Source: Nevskiales bacterium (GTDB lineage Bacteria; Pseudomonadota; Gammaproteobacteria; Nevskiales; Nevskiaceae). From it: DNA of 64,000 nucleotides. The position numbers and the translations under genes were made by a program. Below are positions 3,289-64,000 of the stretch, piece by piece (positions within the stretch are counted from its first letter, which is position 1; each line of letters starts with the position of its first letter). The stretch spans positions 1 through 64,000 of the forward strand of contig JAQVDP010000015.1 of NCBI GenBank assembly GCA_028698335.1. The letters are read 5' to 3'. Below the pieces are notes generated by a model. That model was not told the origin of the DNA, did not search any database, and saw only the letters and a program-made list of their open reading frames with translations.

Positions 3289-4032
3289 ATGAAAACCGCC
3301 CTCATCACCGGCTGCTCATCCGGCTACGGCCTGAAGACCGCACGCCATTTCCACGCGAACGGCTGGAACGTCATCGCCACCATGCGCACGCCGCGCGAGG
3401 ACCTGCTGCCACGTTCACCGCGCATGCAGGTGCGCCGGCTCGACGTCACCCGCCCCGACAGCATCGCCGCGGTCGTCGAGGCCAGCGGACCGGTCGATGT
3501 CCTCGTCAACAACGCCGGGATCGGCCTGTTCGGCGCGGTCGAAGCCACACCGATGGCCACGATCCGGGAGGTCTTCGAAACCAATACCTTCGGCGTGATC
3601 GCGATGACGCGGGCCGTGTTGCCGCAGTTCCGCGCCCGTGGCACCGGCGTCATCATCAACGTCACCTCCAGCACGACGCTGGCGCCGATGCCGCTGGTCG
3701 CCGTCTACACGGCGAGCAAGACCGCGATCGAGGGCTTCACCGGTTCGCTCGCGCATGAACTGGGCGCCTTCGGCATCCGCGCTAAACTGGTCGAGCCCGG
3801 CTACGGCCCGGGCACGCGCTTCTCGCAGAATTCTGGCACGCGCCTTGAAGGCCTGATTCCCGAGGCCTATGCCCCTTTCGCGCAGTCCGTGTTCGAAGCC
3901 TTCACGCGGGTGAGCACCGTCACCACCGCGACCGATGTCGCCGAAACCGTCTGGCAGGCGGCGCACGACGAATCCGCCCGACTCCGGTATCCGGCCGGGC
4001 CGGATGCCGTCGCCCTGTCCGCAGCCGCGTGA
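3289..4032 (+). CDS. SDR family NAD(P)-dependent oxidoreductase
   Basis: Classical short-chain dehydrogenase/reductase of 247 residues. It has the cofactor motif TGCSSGYG at the N terminus, VNNAGIG in the middle, a catalytic Ser in NVTSSTT and the YTASK catalytic Tyr/Lys pair. An in-frame ATG 24 bases upstream exists, but the start at 3289 has GGAG at proper distance and begins right at the Rossmann fold. The substrate is unknown; close relatives are often annotated as broad-specificity carbonyl reductases. Probably controlled by the divergent AraC regulator. Confidence 0.85.
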   Translation: MKTALITGCSSGYGLKTARHFHANGWNVIATMRTPREDLLPRSPRMQVRRLDVTRPDSIAAVVEASGPVDVLVNNAGIGLFGAVEATPMATIREVFETNTFGVIAMTRAVLPQFRARGTGVIINVTSSTTLAPMPLVAVYTASKTAIEGFTGSLAHELGAFGIRAKLVEPGYGPGTRFSQNSGTRLEGLIPEAYAPFAQSVFEAFTRVSTVTTATDVAETVWQAAHDESARLRYPAGPDAVALSAAA

Positions 4033-4991: not shown

Positions 4992-5990
4992 ATGACCGAC
5001 GCGCGATCCACTCCGCGCCGCGCCTTCGTCACCGGCGCCACCGGCTTCGTCGGCAAAGCGCTCTGCGCGGAGCTGATCCGCGACAACTGGCAGGTGACCG
5101 CACTGGTCCGCACGCCGGCCGCCGCCCAGTCTCTGAATGCGCTGGGCGTCACCCTGGCACCCGGGGACATTCTCGACTCGGCGTCGCTGAGCACCGCCAT
5201 TCCGGCCGGGGTGGACACGGTGTTCCACGTCGCCGGCGACACCAGCCTGTGGCGCAAGCGCGACGCGATACAGACGCGGATCAACGTCGACGGCACCCGC
5301 AACGTATTGCGCGCCGCCGTGGCCGCCGGTGCCGGGCGATTCATCCAGACCTCGACGCTCTCCGCCTACGGACGGCACGAGGACCGCATCACCGAAACCA
5401 CCCCGAGCCGCGCCGCGGCCTCTGCCCTCAACTACGAGCGCAGCAAGTGGGCGGCCGAGCAGGAGGTTCGCAACGCGGTCGCCCAGGGGCTCGACGCGGT
5501 GATCCTGCAACCCGGCGCCATCATCGGCCCCGGGGACCGCAGCAACTGGGGCCGCATGTTCCTGATGCTCCGCGCGGGCAAGCTGCCGTTCCTGACCCGC
5601 GGGCGCATTTCGTTCAACCACGTCACCCAGATCGCACGCGCGCACATCGCCGCAGCCGCGGTCGGACGCAGCGGCGAAAGCTACCTGCTGGGCGGTGACG
5701 ACACGTCGATGGCGGACATGATCGTCGGGATGTGCGAACTGCTCGGCAAGCGCCCGCCGCGCCTGAGCGTGCCGGAAGGACTGCTGCGCGCGCTGGCCGC
5801 CCCGGTCGCCGCGCTGACGCCGTCGAGCGTGTCGGAACCGATGATCTCACCAGAGCTGGCACAGCTGATGTCCGCCCGTACCGTCTGCAGCAGCGCCAAG
5901 GCCGAACGCGAACTGGGCCTGCAGCCGACGCCGCTGCAGGACTGCCTGCGCGACTGTCACGACTGGCTCAAACAACAGGCACTCCTGTGA
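4992..5990 (+). CDS. NAD-dependent epimerase/dehydratase (extended SDR)
   Basis: Extended short-chain dehydrogenase of 332 residues. The N-terminal Rossmann motif is TGATGFVG and the active-site Tyr/Lys pair is in NYERSKWAAE, with Ser/Thr in TSTLSAYG. It resembles dihydroflavonol-4-reductase and 3-beta-hydroxysteroid dehydrogenase-like proteins. The ORF stays open to an ATG at 4926, but that start has no ribosome site, while 4992 follows GAGG at 9 bases and begins near the fold. Its TGA overlaps the GTG start of a small membrane protein gene, so the two are translationally coupled. Confidence 0.82.
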   Translation: MTDARSTPRRAFVTGATGFVGKALCAELIRDNWQVTALVRTPAAAQSLNALGVTLAPGDILDSASLSTAIPAGVDTVFHVAGDTSLWRKRDAIQTRINVDGTRNVLRAAVAAGAGRFIQTSTLSAYGRHEDRITETTPSRAAASALNYERSKWAAEQEVRNAVAQGLDAVILQPGAIIGPGDRSNWGRMFLMLRAGKLPFLTRGRISFNHVTQIARAHIAAAAVGRSGESYLLGGDDTSMADMIVGMCELLGKRPPRLSVPEGLLRALAAPVAALTPSSVSEPMISPELAQLMSARTVCSSAKAERELGLQPTPLQDCLRDCHDWLKQQALL

Positions 5991-7604: not shown

Positions 7605-8222
7605 TCAGGCGACGATCATCAGCCCCGCGGTCGCGACCAGCATCGCGCAGATCGTCAGGTTGAAGACCGACTGCGCGCGCGGCGTCGTCAGGACGCGCAG
7701 CATCACTACACCGAACGCGGCCCAGAGCAGGACACACGGCAGGGCCACGGCGATGAACAACGCCACGCCGAATGCCGCACGCGAGAAGTCGACACTGCCG
7801 ATCGTGGTCGCCGCCGCCAGCCCCATCATCCAGACCTTTGGATTGACGACCTGGAAGATCGCGGCCTGCGCGAAGGCCACCGGCCGGGCGTTGCCGGACG
7901 CTGCGTCATGCCCGCCCGCGGCAGGCGACGCGCGCGTCAGCCGCCATGCCAGGTAGCACAGATAACCGGCACCGATCAGCTTCAGCGCCGGAATGAGCGC
8001 AGGCCACGCCAGCATCAATGCGCCCAGCCCGACCACGTTCAGCGCGACCAGCGTCGCGGTGCCGAAGATCACGCCGCCCAGATGTGGCAGCGACCGCCGC
8101 AGGCCGAAGCGCGCGCCGGACGCCAGCAGCATCAGATTGTTCGGCCCCGGCGTGATCGCGGAGCTGAACGCGAGCAGCGCCAGTGCCTGCCAGGTCGCAT
8201 CGGTATGCAGTTCAATGTCCAT
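7605..8222 (-). CDS. LysE/RhtB family amino-acid exporter
   Basis: Integral membrane protein of 205 residues with the LysE signature near the N terminus (SSAITPGPNNLMLLASGARF) and five to six hydrophobic segments. The family exports amino acids or their derivatives. The ATG at 8222 is preferred over an in-frame TTG three codons upstream. Divergent from a MocR-type regulator/aminotransferase that probably controls it; the transported compound is not predictable from sequence. Confidence 0.85.
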   Translation of the reverse strand: MDIELHTDATWQALALLAFSSAITPGPNNLMLLASGARFGLRRSLPHLGGVIFGTATLVALNVVGLGALMLAWPALIPALKLIGAGYLCYLAWRLTRASPAAGGHDAASGNARPVAFAQAAIFQVVNPKVWMMGLAAATTIGSVDFSRAAFGVALFIAVALPCVLLWAAFGVVMLRVLTTPRAQSVFNLTICAMLVATAGLMIVA

Positions 8223-8258
8223 GCAGCGCAATCTACCGACGCACGGCGAATCAGCACA

Positions 8259-8289
8259 GATACAATGAACTGGAATTTATACCGATACA
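8259..8289. promoter_or_regulatory. GATACA direct repeat in LysE/MocR intergenic region
   Basis: GATACA occurs at 8259-8264 and 8284-8289, 25 bases apart, within an AT-rich 77-base divergent promoter region. MocR regulators such as GabR and PdxR bind direct repeats in such regions. Candidate operator, inferred. Confidence 0.4.
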
Positions 8290-8299
8290 GATTCAGGGC

Positions 8300-9727
8300 A
8301 TGACCCCCGCCTATCAGCGCATCGCCGACGACATCGCCACCCAGATCCGCAGCGGACGCATCGCCGCCGGCAGCCGCCTGCCGTCGGTGCGCGAGCTTGC
8401 GGCGCAACACCGGGTCAGCGTCGCAACCGCGATCGGCGCCCTGCGCACGCTGGAGTTCCGGGAGCTGGCGGAGGCACGCCCCCGCTCCGGATACTTCGCA
8501 CGCCTGCCGCCCGCATCCGCGCCGGAGCCGCCGATCAGTCGCCCACCCGCCCGCAGCCGCTCGGTCCGGATCAGCGATGTCGTCGCGCAGATGTTCTCGG
8601 CCGGCGCCCCCCGCACCCGAAGCCCGGCGCCGCTGGGCGCCGCGCTCCCGGATCCCGAACTGCTGCCGACCCAGGCCCTGCAGCGCAGCACGGCCCGCCT
8701 CGCCCGGACCGCACCGCGTCTGTTGTCGGGTTACGGCTCGCTCGAGGGATCGCCGCGATTGCGGCGCTGGATCGCCGCACGCTACCTGCGCAGCAGCACC
8801 GCGATCGACGCATCGGAGCTGCTGATCACCAACGGCGGAATGGAGGCGCTGCAACTGGCGCTGCGCGCGGCATGCGAGCCCGGCGATACCGTGGCGGTCG
8901 AGTCCCCGTGCTACTACGGCTTCCTGCAGATCATCGAAGCGCTGAATCTGAAGGCCTGTGAGATCCCGACCCATCCGCGCACCGGACTGTCGGTGGAAGT
9001 GCTGGAGCGCGTGCTGACCAGCCCGACCGGCCGCGCGATCAAGGCCTGCCTGCTGTGCCCCACGCACAGCAATCCCCTCGGCGCGACGATGCCGGACACC
9101 GACAAGGCCGCGCTCGTCGCGCTATGCCGCCAGCATAAGGTGACACTGATCGAAGACGATCTCTACGGCGAGCTGCAGTATGGAGAACGCCGCCCCCTGC
9201 CGCTGCGGCATTTCGACCCTGAGGGCGAAGTGATGCTGTGCAGTTCCTTCTCGAAGACGCTCGCGCCGGGTGCCCGCATCGGCTTCATCGCCGCCGGCGC
9301 GCACACTGAACGCGTGCGTGCGCTCAAGTTCGCCGCCTCGGTCAGCACCGCACCGCTGATGCAGGAAGCCGTGGCCGAACTGTTGGAAGGCAGTCTCTAC
9401 GACCGTCACCTGCGGCGCCTGCGCGCCGCCTGCGAACAGCAGGTGCAACAGGCGATGCGCTACGTTGCCGAATCCTTCCCCGATGGCACCCGCGTGGCCC
9501 AACCCAGCGGCGGCTTTTTGTTATGGGTGCAGCTGCCGGAAGGCGCCAACACACTGGACCTCTACCGGCGTGCCGCGGCGGAAGGCCTGGAGTTCGCACC
9601 CGGTCCGTTGTTCAGCAGCCGCGGCGGTTTCGCCGACTCGCTGCGCCTCAACTGCGGCCACCGCATGACACCCCGGATCGAAGCCGCGTTCCGGCGGCTT
9701 GGAGAACTTGCGCAAGAGCGAAGCTGA
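8300..9727 (+). CDS. MocR family transcriptional regulator (GntR HTH + aminotransferase fold)
   Basis: A 475-residue fusion of an N-terminal GntR winged helix (about 1-70, AGSRLPSVRELAAQHRVSV) and a fold-type I PLP aminotransferase domain (about 110-470). The PLP lysine is in CSSFSKTLAPGARIGF, and the domain has the usual NGGMEALQLAL and LCPTHSNPLG motifs. MocR proteins sense PLP or amino compounds and usually regulate a divergent gene, here the LysE exporter. The start at 8300 is the first ATG that fits the GntR domain; the open frame upstream crosses the promoter. Confidence 0.87.
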   Translation: MTPAYQRIADDIATQIRSGRIAAGSRLPSVRELAAQHRVSVATAIGALRTLEFRELAEARPRSGYFARLPPASAPEPPISRPPARSRSVRISDVVAQMFSAGAPRTRSPAPLGAALPDPELLPTQALQRSTARLARTAPRLLSGYGSLEGSPRLRRWIAARYLRSSTAIDASELLITNGGMEALQLALRAACEPGDTVAVESPCYYGFLQIIEALNLKACEIPTHPRTGLSVEVLERVLTSPTGRAIKACLLCPTHSNPLGATMPDTDKAALVALCRQHKVTLIEDDLYGELQYGERRPLPLRHFDPEGEVMLCSSFSKTLAPGARIGFIAAGAHTERVRALKFAASVSTAPLMQEAVAELLEGSLYDRHLRRLRAACEQQVQQAMRYVAESFPDGTRVAQPSGGFLLWVQLPEGANTLDLYRRAAAEGLEFAPGPLFSSRGGFADSLRLNCGHRMTPRIEAAFRRLGELAQERS

Positions 9728-9924: not shown

Positions 9925-11817
9925 GTGCGTCAGACCATTCTCATCAGGCTGTTCAGCGTTTCGCTGCTGGCAGCCGCCATCGCCGGATGCGGCAACGACG
10001 CCAAGGAACAGCGCGTCCCATCCGACGTACCGGACTCGATCGACGTCGTCACCGAGGGTGCGGGCGACCCACCACCACCCGCGGTCGGCCTGACGCTGCC
10101 GGCGCCGACGGATGGCGTCGCGGTTCTTGCCGGCACGTCGATCCCGGTGATGCTGTCCAACCCGTCGGCGCAGACGGTCAGCGCACGACTCAGCGCCGAC
10201 GTCCAGGCCAACGGCGCGTTCGCCAGTGTCGACCTCGGCACCTTCGATCTGAGCCCGGGCGCCATCCTGGAAGTGCCCGCGTCGATGCGCGAACTGGGCA
10301 TCGACCTCGACACGCTGGAAACCCCGGCGGGCATCGGCTTCCGCCTGTTGACGGAAGACTCGACCGGCGAAGCGATCGACGGGCTGGCGCTGGCAACCAT
10401 GTATCTGCACCGCGACGGCGACAGCGTCGTCCTCTATGACCGCGGCACGCTGATCGACCGCTACAACGGCGGCGATCTCACCGGCACCTTCTCCGAACCC
10501 GGCGGCGTCGATCCGTTCCCGGGCGCGATCAAGATCGCCGCCGGCAGCGGCGGCGGTGCACCGGACCCGAACGTCCCGCCACCCGTGCTGACCTCAGGCG
10601 AGCAGACCATCTGTATCCACTGGCAGTACGAGTCGCGCGGCCACAACGCGGGCGAAACCTACTACTCGAAAGCCGAACCGATGGCCGCCTTCGGTGTGCG
10701 GGTCGCGGTGCAGTCGACCTCCGGCACGACATCCCACCTCGCCAACCGCAACAACGGCTGCCTCTCGGTGCCAGTCCCGGACGGGCTGTTCAAGGTCATC
10801 GTTCACGCCCACGCCGTCGTCGGCAACGGCCATGACATCGTCGTGCGCGCCTTCGAGCTGGAGGACGATTCACTCGAGAACAGCAACCTGCCGGATTCGC
10901 TCGAACGCAGCTGGGTATTCAAGGCCGTGACCGGCCCGGATCCGGTTCACATCTACGTCCCGGCCGATGCGTCCTCGACGATGATGGCCTTCGGCACCTT
11001 CAGCGCGGCATCGCTGGACGCGCTCGTGCCGGTCACGAATGCATCGCCGAAACTGGACATCCGCTTGGTCGCCACCCGGGACAATTCCGAATCCAGCACC
11101 GGCTCGATCTACATCGCCCCCAGCCAGCGCGACATCAAGTTCCTCTACGGCCACGAGGTCGGACACTGGTATGGCAACAACAGCACCTTCGGCACCGGGT
11201 CGGCCTATCAGTGGAGCAGCGACGATCCCGATTGCGCATCCAACGACCCCGATCCCGACTACCACGCGCACGATCACCTGCTGCGCGGCACCGAGGTACA
11301 CGGCGCCGCGTTCAAGGAAGGCCTGGCCCATGCCCTGTCGACCTTCGTCTGGAACGGCGTGGCCGCCAGCCAGCCGCGGTTCCGCTACTACAAGGATCTG
11401 GACGACCTCGACGCCTACAATGATCTGCAGGCCGACTACTACCGGGTCGACATGGCCGCGAAAACCGACGGCCCGGATACGCTCGGCGGCGTCCGCGCCT
11501 GGCGCTCGGCAAAGTGTTCAGCGTCGGACGACCCGCATGACAAGGTGTCCGTGGAACTCGACTGGGCCCGCTTCTTCGTCAACTACGTCGACCCATCGAC
11601 GAACGCGCTCTACGGCCCCGCACCGACCTTCGCGCAGCTCGTGCAGTTGCTGCAGGCCGCGCGCGCCTATCAGGGCGAGGTCAACACCAACGCGATCTAC
11701 GTCTACGACATCTACCCGATCCTGATCGACGAGATCAGCGACGAAACGCTGGGGCAGCTTCAGTACGTCGACCGCTTCAAGACGCTGGCGGAGATCTACG
11801 ACATCACCAATCCCTGA
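9925..11817 (+). CDS. Predicted lipoprotein zinc metalloprotease (HEXXH)
   Basis: A 630-residue lipoprotein starting at GTG behind a strong GGAGGGGA site. The lipobox IAGC is at about residues 19-22. Residues 30-370 have no recognised domain, with Gly/Pro-rich linkers. H410-E411-V-G-H414 is a zinc-protease motif (GHEVGHWYG), and 50 residues on, K464-E465-G-L-A-H469 resembles the NEGLA segment that carries the third Glu ligand in gluzincin peptidases, where spacing is normally about 18. Lone gene. Likely anchored to the outer membrane and acting on extracellular protein; the family is unassigned and activity is inferred only from the motif. Confidence 0.65.
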   Translation: MRQTILIRLFSVSLLAAAIAGCGNDAKEQRVPSDVPDSIDVVTEGAGDPPPPAVGLTLPAPTDGVAVLAGTSIPVMLSNPSAQTVSARLSADVQANGAFASVDLGTFDLSPGAILEVPASMRELGIDLDTLETPAGIGFRLLTEDSTGEAIDGLALATMYLHRDGDSVVLYDRGTLIDRYNGGDLTGTFSEPGGVDPFPGAIKIAAGSGGGAPDPNVPPPVLTSGEQTICIHWQYESRGHNAGETYYSKAEPMAAFGVRVAVQSTSGTTSHLANRNNGCLSVPVPDGLFKVIVHAHAVVGNGHDIVVRAFELEDDSLENSNLPDSLERSWVFKAVTGPDPVHIYVPADASSTMMAFGTFSAASLDALVPVTNASPKLDIRLVATRDNSESSTGSIYIAPSQRDIKFLYGHEVGHWYGNNSTFGTGSAYQWSSDDPDCASNDPDPDYHAHDHLLRGTEVHGAAFKEGLAHALSTFVWNGVAASQPRFRYYKDLDDLDAYNDLQADYYRVDMAAKTDGPDTLGGVRAWRSAKCSASDDPHDKVSVELDWARFFVNYVDPSTNALYGPAPTFAQLVQLLQAARAYQGEVNTNAIYVYDIYPILIDEISDETLGQLQYVDRFKTLAEIYDITNP

Positions 11818-54127: not shown

Positions 54128-55936
54128 TCAGCCGCGCCGGGCCATGTAGGCGCGCCAGCCGCCGAACGCAGTGATGTCGGTCGCGCCGTCGACGCCGCAG
54201 GGCTCGCAGATGAAGCCGGGCACCCAGCGTCCGTCGGCCAGTTCGAGCTTGCCGATGCCCAGCGGCGCCGGGATGCCGGCGACGAAGCTGCCGAAATGGC
54301 GCGCCGGCAGTTCCCAGACCTCGACCTCGATCGCCGCGCCGCCTTCGGCCACGCGGATCATGCCCGGCCGGAACGGCGGGCCGCCGGCCAGCGCATAGAA
54401 GCGATACGCCGGCGCCGAATGCGTCGCCTCGACCAGCCGCGCACCGCGTTCGAGCAACTGGTGGTTCAGCGGCAGGCCGGCCAGATGCGCCCCGCAGACG
54501 GCGACCCGTACCTGCCCGCTGGGCACGGCGGACGCCAGCGTCTGCGGGGGTTCCGGCAGCGCCTGCCCGGTCGCCCCCAGCGGCGCGCCCAGCGCGCGCT
54601 GGCAGCGCGCCGCCAGATGCAGCAGCGGCACGTCCTGGTGCGCCGGCGCGAACAGGGTCACACCGAACGGCAGACCGTCTGCGCGAAAACCCGCCGGCAC
54701 CGCGACCGCAGCGTAGTCCAGCAGGTTCATGAAGTTGGTGTAGTGGCCGAGGTCGCTGTTGATCCGCACCGGATCGGCCAGGGTGGCCTCGATCGTCGGA
54801 ATGAAACCCGCGGTCGGCGTCAGCACCACGTCCACCGTGGCCCAGACCGCATCGGCAATGCGCTTGAGTTCGGCCAGCCGGTAGAAGGCGTCGAAGGCAT
54901 CGACGCTGCGCAGCGGCGCAGCGCCGCCGACGATCTGCCGGATCACCGGCAGCAGCGCCTCCGGGCGCTGCTCGATCCACTCCCGAATGGCGTGATAGCG
55001 CTCGGCGACCCACGGCCCCTCGTACAGCAGGCGCGCGGCCTCGAGCATCGGCTGCAGGTCGATCTCCTGCCGGATGCCGCCCAGCGCCTCGAGCCGCGCC
55101 ACGGTTTCGTCGAACAGCCGCGCGTAGTCGGCATCGCCGAAGAACGCGAGCTGCCCGGCGCGCGGCACGCCGAACCGGAAGCTGGGCGCACGCCCGAAAT
55201 CAAACCCATGCGGCTCGACTGCGCGCGCATAGCCGAGATCGCCGTCTCCGCCCAGCGCCACCGCGTAGATCTGCTCGGCGTCCTCGGCGGTCAGCGCGAA
55301 GATCGACACCGTATCCAGCGAGCGGCAGGCCGGCACCACGCCGCGCGTCGAGACCAGCCCGCGCGTCGGCTTCAGCCCGACCAGATTGTTGAAGGCGGCC
55401 GGCACACGACCGGACCCCGCGGTGTCGGTACCCAGCGAGAAGCTGGCCTGGCCCAGCGCCACCGCCACCGCCGAACCGGAGCTGGAGCCGCCGGAGACAT
55501 AGGCCGGATCGAAGGCATTGCGGCAGGCACCATAGGGCGAGCGCGTGCCGTTGAGTCCGGTCGCGAACTGATCGAGATTGGTCTTGCCCAGCGGCAAGGC
55601 GCCGGCCGCGATCAGGCGCTCGACCACCTCGGCGCTGCGCTCGGGCACATGGGCGAAGTCCGGACATGCGGCGGTCGTCGGCAGACCCTCGACATCGATG
55701 TTGTCCTTGATCGCGAACGGCACGCCGTACAGCGGCAGGCTGTCCGGCTCGCGGGCATCGAGCGCCTGCGCCATCGCCCGCAGCCGCTCCACCGGCATCC
55801 GTGCGATCCACGCCTGCTGCGGATCGTCGCCGGCACGCTCGAGCAGGGCCGCGATCAGTGCGCTGGGCTTGAGGCCGTTGCGATACGCCGCGCGCAGGCT
55901 CGCCAGATCGAGGCTCGGGGGAATCAATGCGGTCAT
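54128..55936 (-). CDS. atzF: Allophanate hydrolase (AtzF type)
   Basis: A 602-residue amidase-signature enzyme that hydrolyses allophanate to ammonium and CO2. The catalytic triad is K77 (IKDNID), S151 (VSGGSSSGSA) and nucleophile S175 (GTDTAGSGRVPA). The C-terminal 150 residues form the AtzF_C domain that completes decarboxylation. The start is the ATG at 55936 with GGAG 7 bases upstream, rather than an upstream TTG. Last gene of the guanidine operon, 13 bases after the carboxylase. Confidence 0.94.
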   Translation of the reverse strand: MTALIPPSLDLASLRAAYRNGLKPSALIAALLERAGDDPQQAWIARMPVERLRAMAQALDAREPDSLPLYGVPFAIKDNIDVEGLPTTAACPDFAHVPERSAEVVERLIAAGALPLGKTNLDQFATGLNGTRSPYGACRNAFDPAYVSGGSSSGSAVAVALGQASFSLGTDTAGSGRVPAAFNNLVGLKPTRGLVSTRGVVPACRSLDTVSIFALTAEDAEQIYAVALGGDGDLGYARAVEPHGFDFGRAPSFRFGVPRAGQLAFFGDADYARLFDETVARLEALGGIRQEIDLQPMLEAARLLYEGPWVAERYHAIREWIEQRPEALLPVIRQIVGGAAPLRSVDAFDAFYRLAELKRIADAVWATVDVVLTPTAGFIPTIEATLADPVRINSDLGHYTNFMNLLDYAAVAVPAGFRADGLPFGVTLFAPAHQDVPLLHLAARCQRALGAPLGATGQALPEPPQTLASAVPSGQVRVAVCGAHLAGLPLNHQLLERGARLVEATHSAPAYRFYALAGGPPFRPGMIRVAEGGAAIEVEVWELPARHFGSFVAGIPAPLGIGKLELADGRWVPGFICEPCGVDGATDITAFGGWRAYMARRG

Positions 55937-55949
55937 CGGCAACTCCGGA

Positions 55950-58900
55950 TCACGAAACCTTCAGCGTCAGCACGTCCTGGCCCGCCGCGATCGGTGCGCC
56001 TTCGCGGCACAGCACCGACAGCACCTCGCCGTCCTCCGGCGCGACGACACTGAACTCCATCTTCATCGACTCGACGATCACCAGTGCATCGCCGGCCTGG
56101 ACCCGCTGGCCCGGTGCGACCAGCACCTTCCAGACGCTGCCCGGCACGTGCGCCGCGACCAGGCGCGCCCCCGGCGGCAGGTCCAGCTCGCTGTCGGCAC
56201 CCGCTGCGGCGACGTCCGCCTCGTCGATGTACTCGGCCTGGCCGGCAGCACGCCAGCGCTCGCGCTCGGCATCGAAGGCGGCCTGCTGCCGGGTCTTGAA
56301 CGCGGTGATCGATTCACGCTGCTCGTCGAGAAAGCGCAGGTAGTCGGCCAGCTCGAAACGCCCGTCCTCGACCTTGAGCCGGTAGCGACCGGCGACGAAG
56401 TCCTGGCGGATCTGCAGCAGCTCCTCGGCGCTGACCTCGTAGAAGCGGATCTGGTCGAAGAAGCGCAGCAGCCACGGCTGCGTGAAGTCGGCGGTGCGGC
56501 GCCAGCGGTTCCACATCTGCGCGGTGCGCCCGACGAACTGATAGCCGCCCGGGCCTTCCATGCCGTAGACGCAGAGGTAGGCGCCGCCGATGCCGACCGC
56601 GTTCTCCGGCGTCCAGGTGCGGGCCGGGTTGTACTTGGTGGTGACGAGACGATGCCGCGGGTCCAGCGGCGTCGCCACCGGCGCGCCCAGGTAGACGTCG
56701 CCCAGCCCCATCACCAGATACGCGGCGTCGAACACGATGCGCTTGACCGCGTCGATGCTGTCGAGGCCGTTGATGCGGCGGATGAACTCGATGTTGCTCG
56801 GGCACCACGGTGCGTCCTTGCGCACCGACTGCATGTACTTGTCGATGGCCAGGCGCGTGGCCTCGTCGTCCCAGGACAGCGGCAGATGCACCGTGCGCGT
56901 CGGCACGCTCATCTGCGCCACCGGCGGCAGCCCGTCCTCGAGAAGCTGCAGCTGCTCGATCAGGGCGTCGCGCGACAGCAGTCGCGGATCGTAGTGCACC
57001 TGCAGCGAACGGATGCCCGGCGTCAGATCGATGATGCCGGCGTCGGCCTGCGTATCGCGCCAGGTCTGCAGCGCCTCCATCAGCACATGTGCGCGCATGC
57101 GCAGGGTCAGGTCCAGCTCCAGCGGCCCGTACTCGACCAGCAGGTAGGCGTCGCCGGCCTGGCGATAGACCACCTGCGGCTGTTCGCCGCGCGCCGGCCG
57201 CCGCGCGACGATCGGATCCGGCAGGGCCTCGGCCTGCGGCGCGACCGGCGCCGCGCCGGTGACCAGCGTCTCCTGCTGCGCCGCCAGCAGGCGCGCGGCC
57301 TGCTCGGGCCCGACCGGCACGAAGCGCAGCGTGTCGCCCGGCCGCAACTGGCCGAGCTTCCACAGCTCCGCCTGCACCACCACCGCCGGGCAGACGAAGC
57401 CGCCCAGGCTCGGACCGTCCGGCCCCAGGATCACCGGCATGTCGCCGGTGAAGTCGATCGCGCCGATGGCGTAGGCGTTGTCGTGGATGTTCGACGGATG
57501 CAGGCCGGCCTCGCCGCCGTCGCTGCGCGCCCACTCGGGCCTGGGCCCGATCAGGCGCACGCCGGTGCGGCTGGAGTTGTAGTGCACTTCCCAGTCGGTC
57601 TCGAAGAAGCGCGCGATGTCGGTATCGGTGAAGAAATCAGGGGCGCCGTGCGGCCCGTACAGCACACCGATCTGCCACTGATGGCTGTGCCGTGGCCGTG
57701 CCGCCGGCGGCCACTGCGTGCCCGCCTCGGCCTCACCGCCTTCGCTCGCGGCCAGGTGCAGCACATCGCCGACGCGCAGGGTGCGGCCGGCATGCCCGCC
57801 GAACTGCCCCAGCGTGAACGTGGCTTTCGCGCCGAGGTAGTCCGGCACGTCGAAACCGCCATGCACGCACAGATAGCTGCGGCAGCCGGCGTCGCGCACG
57901 GCACCGAGCTTGAGCACGCTGCCGGCAGTGGCGCGATGGACCTGCCAGGGCGCCAGCGGCGCACCGTCCAGCGTGGCGTCGAGTTCGGCGCCGGCCAGCG
58001 CGAAGGTCGTTTCGCAATTGAAGCGCAGGGTCGGCCCGCTCATCGTGCATTCGAGCGCCGCGGCACCTTCAGAATTACCCAGCAGCCGGTTGCCAATGCG
58101 CAGCGCCAGCGCGTCCATCGGCCCCGACGGCGGCACGCCGACATCCCAGTAGCCGACGCGGCCCGGCCAGTCCTGCACCGAGGTCTGCACGCCGGGTTCG
58201 AGCACGTCCAGCGTGCGCGGGCGGTAGTGGAAGGCGTTCAGGTAGCGCGTGGTCTGCCGCCCTTCGGCGAACACGGCGTCGGCGACGACCTGACGCAGAT
58301 AGTCCAGATTGGTCTCGATACCGGCGATGCGTGTCGCCGCCAGTGCCTCGCGCAGCCGCGCCAGCGCCGCCGCGCGGGTCTCGCCGGTGACGATCAGCTT
58401 GGCCAGCATCGGGTCGTAGTACGGACTGACCTCGGAGCCGGCCGTCACCGCGCTTTCGACGCGAACGCCGTCGGGGAATGCGACCTCGGTCAGCAGACCG
58501 GTCGAGGGCTGGAAGTCCTTGTGCGGGTCCTCGGCGTAGAGGCGCACCTGGATCGACGCGCCGGCCAGGGTCGGCGCGAGTGACGCCAGCGGCGGCAGAT
58601 CGCCCGCGGCGAGCTGCAGCATCCATGCGACCAGATCGACACCGGCGACCTGTTCGGTGACGCCGTGCTCCACCTGCAGCCGGGTGTTGACCTCGAGGAA
58701 ATAGAACGCGCCGCTGTGCGCGTCCATGACGAATTCGACGGTGCCGGCCGAGCGGTAGTCCACCGCCTGCATCAGCCGCACCGCGACCTCGTGCAGATGC
58801 ATACGCTGCGCCGCGCTCAGACCCGGCGCCGGGGTTTCCTCGATCACCTTCTGGTTGCGGCGCTGCACCGAGCAGTCGCGCTCACCCAGCGCCAGCACCG

Positions 58901-59555
58901 CGCCCCGGCCGTCGCCAAAGACCTGCACCTCGATGTGGCGCGCGGCCTCGACGTACTTCTCCAGATAGATACCGGCTTCCTTGAAGTTGGCGCGCGCCAG
59001 ACGCTCGACCGAGGCATAGGCCTCGTCCAGCGCGTCGTCCGACCACACCAGACGCATGCCGATGCCGCCGCCGCCGGCGGTGCTCTTGAGCATCACCGGA
59101 TAGCCGATGCGCGCGGCCTCGGCGCGCGCATGGCCGGCGTCGTTCAGCAGCGCGCTGCCGGGCAGCAGCGGCACCTGGCTGCGCTCGGCCAGTTCGCGCG
59201 CGGTGTGCTTGAGCCCGAACGCGCGCATCTGCGCCGGCGTCGGCCCGATGAAGGCGATGCCGGCCGCGGCGCAGGCCTCGGCGAAGTCCGGGTTCTCCGA
59301 CAGGAAGCCGTAACCGGGATGGATCGCCTCGGCGCCGGTCTGTTGCGCGACCTCGAGCATGCGCTCGGCCCGCAGATAGCTGTCGGCGGCCGGTGCCGGT
59401 CCGATACAGACCGCCTCGTCGGCCAGCTCGACGTGCAGCGCATTGGCATCGGCCTCGGAGTAGACCGCGACCGACTGCACGCCGAGTGCCCTGAGCGTGC
59501 GGATGATGCGGCAGGCAATCGCGCCGCGGTTGGCAATCAGGACCTTCTTGAACAT
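55950..59555 (-). CDS. Urea/guanidine carboxylase (biotin-dependent)
   Basis: A 1201-residue biotin enzyme. The order is biotin carboxylase (1-450, [20 protein letters not shown] start, [12 protein letters not shown]), an AHS2/KipA-like domain (about 465-780, [20 protein letters not shown]), an AHS1/KipI-like domain (about 830-1020) and a biotinyl domain with K1165 in VESMKMEFS. Traditionally called urea carboxylase; enzymes in clusters with UAAP genes and guanidine riboswitches are guanidine carboxylases producing carboxyguanidine. Guanidine use is favoured here because a guanidine-II element directly precedes the gene. Confidence 0.93.
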
Positions 59556-59568
59556 GTCATCGTTTCCG

Positions 59569-59621
59569 CTGGCGGGTCGTCCCGCCGCAGCCCATGATCG
59601 GCAGCGGGTCGTCCCGCTGCC
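59569..59621 (-). ncRNA. Guanidine-II riboswitch (mini-ykkC) before the carboxylase gene
   Basis: In the RNA sense, two hairpins carry identical ACGA loops closed by GGG/CCC: GGCAGCGGG-ACGA-CCCGCTGCC (59600-59621, nine perfect pairs) and GGCGGG-ACGA-CCCGCC (59571-59586, six pairs), joined by a 13-base linker. Paired stems with ACGR loops are the defining feature of the guanidine-II class, whose loops dock when guanidine binds. The second hairpin is directly followed by GGAAAC, the likely ribosome site, and the carboxylase ATG, so control of translation is expected. No covariance test could be run. Confidence 0.87.
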
Positions 59622-59630
59622 GGCGACGCG

Positions 59631-60290
59631 TCAGACCGGATTCCAGACCAGCAGGCGCACCGGCGTCGGGTTGTATGCGTTGCAGGGATTGTTCAGCTGC
59701 GGGCAGTTGGAGATCAGCACCACCACGTCCATCTCGGCGCGCATCTCGACGTACTTGCCGGGCGCGGAGATGCCGTCGTCGAACTTCAGCGCGCCTTCGG
59801 CCGTCACCGGCACGTTCATGAAGAAGTTGATGTTGGCGGTGATGTCACGCTTGCCCAGATTCAGGTGATGCGCACAGTCGCAATGCGACAGCGCGTGCAT
59901 GAAGTTGTCGCGACAGCTGTGCATCGGCCGCTTGTCCAGGGCGTAGCGCACGGTGTTGCTCTCGGCCGCGCAGGCGCCGCCGAGCGTGTCGTGGCGACCG
60001 CAGGTGTCGGCGACGATCGTCAGCATCGGACGGCCCTCGCTCGAGTACAGCACCGAGCCGGCTTCGAGATACAGACGGCCCTGGCGCTGGATCGTGTCGA
60101 CCGCGCTGTAGCGCTCCTCGGCATCGTCGGCGCTGTAGAACAGCGTGTCGACCGCCTGGTTGCCTTCGAGGTCGAGGATGCGGAAGACCTGGCCCTTGCG
60201 GACCGTCGCCATCCACGGCTCGCCGGCCGCACAGACTTCATCCAGAACCGCATTGCTCGGGTCCAGATGGCTTTCAACGATGGTGCTCAT
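59631..60290 (-). CDS. DUF1989 protein UAAP1, carboxyguanidine deiminase subunit
   Basis: A 219-residue DUF1989 protein (urea-amidolyase-associated protein 1). Motifs: [37 protein letters not shown] and [15 protein letters not shown], with conserved Cys and His that can bind metal. With UAAP2 it forms the carboxyguanidine deiminase (CgdAB) that makes allophanate and ammonium from carboxyguanidine in guanidine-degrading bacteria. The start at 60290 follows GGAG; the open frame upstream overlaps UAAP2. Ten bases after UAAP2. Confidence 0.9.
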
Positions 60291-60300
60291 CGGGATCTCC

Positions 60301-61038
60301 TTACTGCGCGAAGTAGCGGTCGGTGTTGGTGAAGGCGCGCGTGTTCTGGCCGCAGTGCTGGCGGCAGACATCGTCCGCACCGGCGACGCCGGCGTGCCAG
60401 GCGCTGAGGCGCACCGGCGCCGGGCGATACTCGCCGGCCGGCGCCAGCGGATGCGGCGCGGCCGACAGCACCACCAGCACGTTCATGTCGAAGCGCAGGT
60501 CGACGGCGGCGCCGGCGGGGCTGTGGCCTTCGACGTAGTGCAGATAGCCGTTGGCGTCCGGCACCACCTTGCTGAAGAAGTTGGCGGTCGCGCCCAGATC
60601 GCGCTTGCCGAGCCCCCACTTGCCGAGCTCGATCAGCAGGCCGTCGCGACCGTTGCGATGCATCGCGTTGCGGTGGGTCTGGTAGCGCGCCTCGCCGTAC
60701 TTGCTGCGGATCAGCTCGGCGTCGGACACGCCGCAGACGGTGTCATGCCAGCCCAGATCGTCGCCGACGATCGAGGCCAGCACGCGGCCCATGTCCGACA
60801 TCAGCACGTTGCCGCGGGTCAGGAAGGCGGTGTGCTGGGCCTTGAGTGTGTCCGGCATGTTGTAGCGCTCGAGCTTCTCCTCCTGGTTGAAGAGCAGCAT
60901 CGAGACATTGGCACCCCCGTCGAGATCGGTCAGGCGCAGCGCACTGCCGCGCCGCATCAGACCGGACCAGTGGGTGCCGCCGGGCAGGGTTTCCTCCCAC
61001 AACACGGTCGCGGGATCGAGCGGGGCCAGCGCGCTCAT
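60301..61038 (-). CDS. DUF1989 protein UAAP2, carboxyguanidine deiminase subunit
   Basis: A 245-residue DUF1989 protein, partner of UAAP1. Motifs: [32 protein letters not shown] and [20 protein letters not shown], ending with a Cys-containing tail ([17 protein letters not shown]). First protein gene of the guanidine operon. Its ATG overlaps the stop of a 20-codon ORF in ATGA, and GGGAG lies 8 bases upstream. Expression should depend on the guanidine-I riboswitch in the leader. Confidence 0.9.
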
Positions 61039-61097
61039 CGCGCGGCTCCCGACACCGGTTTGCGGACGGATCGAGGGATCAGGATGTATCGGATCAT
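61035..61097 (-). CDS. Short Arg-rich leader ORF coupled to UAAP2
   Basis: Twenty codons, [20 protein letters not shown], beginning with ATG behind AGGAGG, the best ribosome site in the operon, and ending in a TGA that overlaps the UAAP2 ATG (ATGA). Four of 20 residues are Arg. It lies between the guanidine-I element and the first enzyme gene. It could serve as a translation enhancer for UAAP2 or as a regulatory leader peptide. Translation is predicted from signals only; no family recognised. Confidence 0.55.
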   Translation of the reverse strand: MIRYILIPRSVRKPVSGAAR

Positions 61098-61156
61098 TGC
61101 AGCCTCCTGCGGGTCAGATCGTAAGCACAGCGAGAGGGCGCCTTGCATCAAAGCGA

Positions 61157-61283
61157 TCCTCCCGGGCTTTTATCCCTCCGTGCAGCGTCCGATCCGCGGG
61201 GCGATCCCGCATCGCAGAGGCCGGCGGCTCTCGGACCAGCCATCCGCGTGCGCGGACCGGAACCCTAGCCACCCTTCGAAGCA
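61157..61283 (-). ncRNA. Guanidine-I riboswitch (ykkC-yxkD leader)
   Basis: Read on the minus strand, the leader holds the conserved ykkC elements in proper order: GGGTGGCTAGGGTTCCGG, then GGCTGGTCCGAGAGCC, then CTGCACGG and GGGATAAAAGCCCGGGAGG. These are the P1/P1a core, the GNRA-like hairpin and the P3 helix that build the guanidinium pocket. Located 120 bases before UAAP2. No clear terminator follows, so it may act through translation or Rho. Downstream guanidine genes confirm the ligand class. Match is by eye. Confidence 0.95.
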
Positions 61284-61326
61284 GCGGGCCGATGCCACCG
61301 GCCTGCCCCTCTCAAGGGGAGATATA

Positions 61327-61341
61327 GCACAACACATGCCA
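61327..61341 (-). promoter_or_regulatory. Candidate sigma-54 promoter of guanidine operon
   Basis: On the minus strand TGGCATGTGTTGTGC keeps the required GG-N10-GC spacing of the sigma-54 -24/-12 element (consensus TGGCACG-N4-TTGC) but has GTGC instead of TTGC. It would start transcription near 61315, about 30 bases before the riboswitch. A sigma-70 reading using TATATC nearby cannot be excluded. Confidence 0.5.
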
Positions 61342-61413
61342 CGGCGCGGACCCCGCGTGGCGGCGCCCCGCCGGGAAAAGCGGGGTCCGACGCGCCAGGA
61401 TGAGGCGTTGCGC

Positions 61414-61428
61414 GCGCCGATGTGGTGC
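61414..61428. promoter_or_regulatory. Candidate NtrC enhancer between divergent sigma-54 promoters
   Basis: GCGCC-GATGT-GGTGC differs in one base from the NtrC dyad GCACC-N5-GGTGC. It lies midway between the minus-strand (61327-61341) and plus-strand (61489-61504) sigma-54 elements, so one enhancer could serve both. In GC-rich DNA a chance match is possible. The rest of 61342-61488 shows nothing else. Confidence 0.4.
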
Positions 61429-61488
61429 GCCCTCCGCCGGCTGCCGTCACGACGATGTGCCGCCGCATAACTAAGGACTGCGACGGCG

Positions 61489-61504
61489 TGGCACGTCGCT
61501 TGCG
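61489..61504 (+). promoter_or_regulatory. Sigma-54 promoter of desaturase/TIM-barrel operon
   Basis: TGGCACGTCGCTTGCG matches the -24 (TGGCACG) and -12 (TTGC) blocks completely with the GG-N10-GC spacing. Predicted start near 61515, 37 bases before the ATG of the desaturase-like gene. Confidence 0.75.
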
Positions 61505-61551
61505 CTGCTGGCGTCGATGCGGCACCCGGCCGCACCGATGGAGCAGCAACG

Positions 61552-62559
61552 ATGGACTGGCCCCAGGCTTGGGCATTGCGCGGCGGCCGCGCGGACTGGC
61601 CGCAACTCGCGGCACTGGGCTACGCCGTCGGCGTGTATGGCGCAGCCGTTGCCGGCCTGTTGTCCGGCAATGCGATCGTGCAGTGCGCGGCAACACTCGC
61701 CCTGGCGCACAGCCTGGTCGTCGCGGCGTATCTGATTCATGAGTGCGCGCACAACGCCGTCTTCGTGTCGCAGACGGCCAACCGCCGCCTCGGCGCGTTG
61801 CTGAGCTGGGGAGTCGGCGCCGGCTACGGCCGCTACGACGATATCCGCCGCAAGCATCTGCGCCACCATTCCGAACGCGCGGACGTCATCGCCTACGACT
61901 ACCGCGCGCTGCTGCGGCGTCACCCGGCCTTGCTGCGCACGGTGCAGGCCGCCGAGTGGGCCTACATTCCGGCGGTCGATCTGCTGATGCACGCGCTGGT
62001 GATCGTGCTGCCGTTCACCTCGCCGACGCGGCGCGACCGCCGTGCGCGGGTGCTGTTCCAGCTCGCGCTGCGCGGCAGCCTGTTCGCCGCCATGGCGTGG
62101 ATCACGCCGACCGCGCCGCTGTTCTACGCGCTGGGATATCTGCTGTTCCTGCATGTGCTGCGCTTCATGGATGTGCACCAGCACACCTATGCCGTCCTCA
62201 CGACGCTGGACGACGGCACGCCAGCCCATGCCGCGGGCGACCGCGCCTACGAGCACCGCAACACCTACTCCAATCCGCTGTCGCCGGCACATCCGGCACT
62301 GGACTGGCTGACGCTGAACTTCGGCTACCACAACGCGCATCACATTCACCCGAGCACGCCGTGGCACCGGTTGCCGGCGCTGCATCGTGCGCAGTCGCCG
62401 ATCACCGCGGACCACGTGCTGCCGTTCACCGCGCTGCTGCGCAGCTATCACCATCATCGCGTCGCGCGCGTGCTGCATGGCGATGCGCCCGATCACGCCA
62501 TCGGCGCGGCGCAGGATTTCATCGGCGTGCTCGGCGTGTCGTTTCTGACCGCGCATTGA
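61552..62559 (+). CDS. Fatty acid desaturase family membrane protein in nitrogen locus
   Basis: A 335-residue membrane protein with the three di-iron histidine boxes of the desaturase superfamily: H63-ECA-H67, H102-LR-HH106 and H260-NA-HH264, plus VHQHTY near 208. Hydrophobic segments lie near 20-70, 80-95 and 145-200. GGAG is 8 bases before the ATG. It is driven by a consensus sigma-54 promoter, unusual for a lipid desaturase, and is coupled with a TIM-barrel gene. It could oxidise or hydroxylate an N-containing compound rather than a fatty acid; this is inference. Confidence 0.8.
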   Translation: MDWPQAWALRGGRADWPQLAALGYAVGVYGAAVAGLLSGNAIVQCAATLALAHSLVVAAYLIHECAHNAVFVSQTANRRLGALLSWGVGAGYGRYDDIRRKHLRHHSERADVIAYDYRALLRRHPALLRTVQAAEWAYIPAVDLLMHALVIVLPFTSPTRRDRRARVLFQLALRGSLFAAMAWITPTAPLFYALGYLLFLHVLRFMDVHQHTYAVLTTLDDGTPAHAAGDRAYEHRNTYSNPLSPAHPALDWLTLNFGYHNAHHIHPSTPWHRLPALHRAQSPITADHVLPFTALLRSYHHHRVARVLHGDAPDHAIGAAQDFIGVLGVSFLTAH

Positions 62560-63630: not shown

Positions 63631-64000
63631 ATGAAAATCGGTATGAAGAAGTTGTTCGCCGCGACGCTGGGTGCGTGGATGCTGTCGCTGTCCGCACACG
63701 CCGCCGAACCCCTGAAGATTGGCTACAGCGACTGGCCGGGCTGGGTCGCATGGCAGGTCGCCATCGAGAAGAACTGGTTCGAAGAGGAAGGCGTCGACGT
63801 CTCCTTCGAGTGGTTCGACTACGTCGCGTCGATGGACGCCTTCGCGGCCGGGCAGCTCGACGCCGTGACGATGACCAATGGCGATGCGCTGGTCACCGGC
63901 GCCACCGGCGCCAAGAGCGTGATGATCGTCATCAACGACTACAGCAACGGCAACGACATGGTCGTCGGCAAGCCGGGCATCGAATCGCTGAAGGACCTGA
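63631..64000 (+). CDS. ABC transporter substrate-binding protein, N-terminal part (runs off window)
   Basis: The first 123 residues are visible, without a stop before the window end. The start follows AAGAGGA. A signal peptide ([20 protein letters not shown], then SAHA-AEP) precedes [20 protein letters not shown], the N terminus of the NrtA/SsuA/TauA-like fold found in urea carboxylase-associated transporters. It should bind a small N-compound in the periplasm, probably guanidine or urea, for an ABC importer encoded further downstream. Ligand is inferred from locus and promoter. Confidence 0.85.

Follow-up and report, generated by a model that had tools for sequence, protein, structure and literature searches.

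A Guanidine-II element between cgdB and gca in a two-riboswitch guanidine operon of a Nevskiales bacterium

Guanidine operons that carry riboswitches of two classes have already been described. In Vreelandella (V.) boliviensis, a Guanidine-I element stands in front of the operon and a Guanidine-II element between cgdB and gca, a case studied with in-line probing, and the latter binds guanidine with a KD of about 93 uM (PMC12508155). In Raoultella, Klebsiella and Erwinia, Guanidine-I is assigned to the importer and deiminase genes and Guanidine-II to the carboxylase and allophanate hydrolase genes; the same review distinguishes guanidine carboxylases by an aspartate from urea carboxylases, which carry an asparagine (PMC12186494). 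For the Guanidine-II class it has been proposed that guanidinium drives kissing of the two loops, which weakens the pairing of the linker with the Shine-Dalgarno (SD) sequence (PMC9300104, PMC9094411).

In our study, a 64,000-nucleotide stretch of DNA from a Nevskiales bacterium (the window) has been analysed, in which a minus-strand operon has the order Guanidine-I, cgdA, cgdB, Guanidine-II, gca, atzF. The Guanidine-II element very probably controls the translation of gca from within this operon.

The operon and its Guanidine-II element

The features of the operon, in the direction of transcription, are as follows.

61157-61279, minus strand: Guanidine-I (ykkC) aptamer at the operon start (RF00442, 83 bits, cut-off 63)
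60301-61038, minus strand: cgdA / UAAP1 (TIGR03425, 346.8 bits)
59631-60290, minus strand: cgdB / UAAP2, carboxyguanidine deiminase subunit (TIGR03424, 349 bits, cut-off 284.7)
59572-59620, minus strand: Guanidine-II (mini-ykkC) aptamer (Rfam RF01068; covariation at 72 homologous sites)
59599-59622, minus strand: hairpin P1, 10 bp, 59622-59613 with 59608-59599, loop ACGA 59612-59609 (sequence and fold)
59587-59598, minus strand: linker between P1 and P2, 12 nt
59571-59586, minus strand: hairpin P2, 6-bp core, 59586-59581 with 59576-59571, loop ACGA 59580-59577 (sequence and fold)
59564-59569, minus strand: putative SD region GCGGAA of gca, the best anti-SD match, 8 nt before the ATG at 59555
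55950-59555, minus strand: gca, guanidine carboxylase, annotated as urea carboxylase type (TIGR02712, 1885 bits; Asp701)
54128-55942, minus strand: atzF, allophanate hydrolase, the last enzyme of the pathway (TIGR02713, 819 bits)

Positions 59572-59620 of the minus strand scored 43 bits with the Rfam model RF01068, above its cut-off of 32, and the E-value was 3.1e-5 when all families were searched over the whole window. At curated thresholds, Rfam gave no matches in the window other than Guanidine-II and Guanidine-I, and a genome scan found one copy of each in the 4.3-Mb genome. A gap of 75 nt separates the UAAP2 stop codon from the gca ATG, and the minus strand from 59633 to 59553 reads UAAP2 stop, P1, 12-nt linker, P2, AGCGGAAACGATGAC and gca ATG at 59555. 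The gap folds with a z-score of -4.8 and was more stable than all 200 shuffled versions. The motif GGGACGACCC has just two occurrences in the window, both of which lie in this gap, and two or more matches anywhere in 64 kb were obtained in 4 of 100 shuffles. The sequence GGAAAC (59567-59562, minus strand) starts 3 nt past P2. Sequence and fold thus reproduce the double hairpin with identical ACGA loops in a 75-nt gap, adjoining GGAAAC, of the preliminary description, and its intra-operonic mini-ykkC element 3' of a Guanidine-I element is borne out by the Rfam matches (RF01068, 43 bits; RF00442, 83 bits). The upstream neighbour of the gap had been named UAAP1; this label is off by one gene, since NCBIfam places the gene before the gap in UAAP2/cgdB (TIGR03424, 349 bits) and it scores below the UAAP1 cut-off.

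UAAP1 and UAAP2 are equivalent to CgdA and CgdB, the subunits of carboxyguanidine deiminase; the primary paper for this function is Schneider 2020, cited in PMC12508155. Asp701 of gca aligns with Asn1330 of the Kluyveromyces lactis urea amidolyase 5i8i, a position which we presume to be the type-marking residue meant in the review. Aspartate, the guanidine type, was found in the carboxylase of the window and in all readable sequences except one. The Guanidine-II element thus stands after cgdAB and before an Asp-type gca, which fits the association of the class with guanidine metabolism genes. An NMT1-type substrate-binding protein gene begins at 63631-64000 on the plus strand and is transcribed away from the operon; the importer of many relatives is found inside the operon, after Guanidine-I.

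Occurrence and conservation in related operons

UAAP2 loci were collected from 146 related genomes and from named genomes (80 loci) and scanned with purpose-built covariance models for both riboswitch classes. The Guanidine-II model was partly built from relatives of the window, so the 80 named loci serve as the independent matches. Among these, Guanidine-II follows cgdB in 51 and Guanidine-I lies upstream of cgdA in 64; of the 51 loci with an internal Guanidine-II, 40 also have Guanidine-I further upstream in that operon, and the remaining 11 include several short contigs. By an automatic rule, 72 of 113 operons with a UAAP2 of this type carry Guanidine-II between cgdB and gca, including weak matches down to 19.9 bits, the least certain being locus L163. 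An internal copy, which had been thought unusual, is therefore the commonest layout among the sampled operons and is already published (PMC12186494, PMC12508155). Beyond the 72 sites, both hairpins are visible in loci L166 and L103 though the rule missed them. In L103 (Thiobacillus denitrificans, 8648-8855, plus strand) P1 and P2 are set apart by a palindromic insert with a length of about 150 nt, and the hairpins look intact.

The element is absent from all 12 Nitrosomonadaceae rows of the UAAP2 tree and from a group of Oxalobacteraceae. In this tree the window and one congener (G004) stand nearest to Methylophilaceae and apart from the rest of their family, on a joining branch that is not strongly supported; transfer of the operon would fit this position. 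A further locus (L188) has two Guanidine-I elements in one operon (605-706 and 5717-5815, plus strand), the second directly before cgdA, with creatininase-like and glutamine synthetase-like genes between them; a hairpin with the loop ACCA is present between its cgdB and gca genes and looks decayed.

In the alignment of the 72 sites, made with MAFFT from sequence only, 94% of the stem cells were paired and 12 of 13 pairs had changes on both sides. The covariation score was 0.524, compared to 0.150 in shuffled controls, which do not keep relatedness, and at most 0.153 in slid controls, which do; none of 500 shuffles equalled the real alignment on all five measures. ACG is invariant in both loops at the 72 sites and both loops are ACGR at 67 of them, the P2 loop being ACGC at 5 (in one case together with ACGT in P1). 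Covariation of the stems in relatives was the test proposed with the preliminary description, and it has been seen; ACGR loops are likewise present in the nearest relative (L149), as well as at the 67 homologous sites.

The distance from the end of P2 to the gca start codon has a median of 19 nt (interquartile range 16-21) and lies between 10 and 26 nt in 66 of the 72 sites, whereas the distance from the cgdB stop codon to P1 ranges from 0 to 275 nt. The element therefore keeps station with gca.

Another placement, with Guanidine-II before cgdA, was found in five congeners (G001, G003, G006, G008 and G010), in one genome of the same family (G021) and in a Hyphomicrobium metagenome-assembled genome (L138). 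The cgdB-gca gap is 2-5 nt in six of these seven operons, the exception being G010 with 342 nt, and at least 62 nt in the 72 sites with Guanidine-II before gca. The tree requires two changes for this state. In G001 (L159) one leader before cgdA contains both Guanidine-II (3324-3376) and Guanidine-I (3572-3672), 196 nt apart on the minus strand. In G006 (L180) an ABC transporter lies between the two elements, and Guanidine-II (7751-7800, minus strand) overlaps the 3' end of an annotated ABC ATPase frame (7734-8585); as this upstream frame runs through the element, its hairpins may also be coding sequence. The idea that these operons have urea-type carboxylases was rejected, as all six relatives carry Asp and Asn was found only in L138. 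The latter Hyphomicrobium carboxylase (10661-10780, plus strand) has the urea mark despite both guanidine riboswitches in its operon. This layout was not found in the literature searched, a 2021 guanidine-utilisation paper lying outside that search, and the placement may be new. It can be tentatively speculated that one Guanidine-II is placed a short way upstream of the leading gene in a compact block of enzyme genes (gca at 72 sites, cgdA at 7), so that two switch classes would act serially on transcription and translation, with at least two separate shifts in the tree and G001 having both in one leader; this rule is considered possible, though not the probable case.

Control of gca and alternative explanations

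The control of gca translation by the element is argued directly from its family membership, covarying stems, fixed spacing to gca and co-occurrence with Guanidine-I. By analogy to published work on the class, guanidinium would bind both ACGA loops, which would then kiss and free the ribosome site of gca. Guanidine-I at the operon start would first determine if a transcript is produced at all, so that gca, whose ATP-consuming enzyme opens the pathway, would be gated twice.

According to the predicted fold, the linker of the element contains a CUGC (59590-59587) that is able to pair with the GCGG at 59569-59566 in the ribosome site. The SD region is 34% unpaired in the predicted ensemble and 70% unpaired with the linker blocked, and an equally strong pairing is reached by 6% of shuffled linkers when the window is taken alone. 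Over 67 sites, however, the linker share of the SD pairing was 0.174, compared to 0.188 +/- 0.023 for shuffled linkers, and a linker anti-SD as a conserved feature was not supported (67 sites, 100 linker shuffles each). As the pairing seen in the window does not generalise over these sites, the SD-release step is adopted from the literature.

Guanidine-I and the cgdAB genes that follow it share one strand. Neither Guanidine-I nor Guanidine-II was found to be followed by an intrinsic terminator in the window, and hence we infer the transcriptional role of Guanidine-I from the published class work. Neither a promoter-like site (scan for the sigma-70 consensus only) nor a terminator was found in 59300-61600, which fits a single transcript running through Guanidine-II. 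Between Guanidine-I and cgdA there is a 20-codon open reading frame (61035-61097, minus strand) with the SD sequence AGGAGG, whose TGA overlaps the cgdA ATG. A short frame with a different peptide occupies the equivalent place in L149; a conserved short frame was rejected, only the position and the SD being kept.

The location of the element between genes would also fit an effect mainly on mRNA continuity, in which the unbound, poorly translated gca mRNA would be terminated by Rho or cleaved by RNases and the element would act as an internal attenuator separating the output of cgdAB from that of gca-atzF. The V. boliviensis paper points out that the level of an mRNA can be closely coupled to the control of its translation (PMC12508155). 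However, the steady spacing of 10-26 nt from the gca start codon suggests that translation is targeted directly, and an intrinsic terminator was not found in the window; this explanation is regarded as unlikely, though it is the likeliest of the alternatives. Less likely still, the internal element may mainly be a second sensor with a wider ligand range, so that methylguanidine would hold gca open. The internal Guanidine-II of V. boliviensis binds guanidine and methylguanidine equally, and its Guanidine-I does not bind methylguanidine (PMC12508155); in the window, however, atzF directly follows gca, without the demethylating mgdH and mgdL that stand between them in V. boliviensis. Hairpins form easily in a GC-rich genome, but generic intergenic processing or stability elements with a chance aptamer match are refuted by the covariation and invariant ACG loops at 72 sites, besides the Rfam score above cut-off and the single genome copy, and are considered extremely improbable.

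Comparison with known guanidine operons

The element resembles the RF01068 class in its two short GC-rich hairpins, ACGR loops with invariant ACG, linker and position just before a ribosome site. No difference was found in the aptamer itself; the window copy differs in lying between genes and not in a 5' leader, which is already known for gca operons. To the layout of two riboswitch classes for one ligand in one operon, our study adds a clean example and a set of 72 sites. This set separates the features that are kept (ACG loops, spacing from P2 to the start codon) from one that is not (linker-SD pairing), a contrast that speaks to the still inferred switching mechanism of Guanidine-II.

As in Raoultella, Klebsiella and Erwinia, Guanidine-I stands over the deiminase genes and Guanidine-II over the carboxylase and allophanate hydrolase genes, whereas the window has no importer genes between Guanidine-I and cgdA. 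The operon shares with V. boliviensis the Guanidine-I element in front, Guanidine-II between cgdB and gca, and the following gca and atzF. On the other hand, mgdH and mgdL are missing from the place between its gca and atzF genes, its Guanidine-I lies directly before cgdA, and the NMT1-type gene is on the opposite strand at 63631. Hence, the window presents the published two-switch layout in another lineage, a sound new example and not a surprise.
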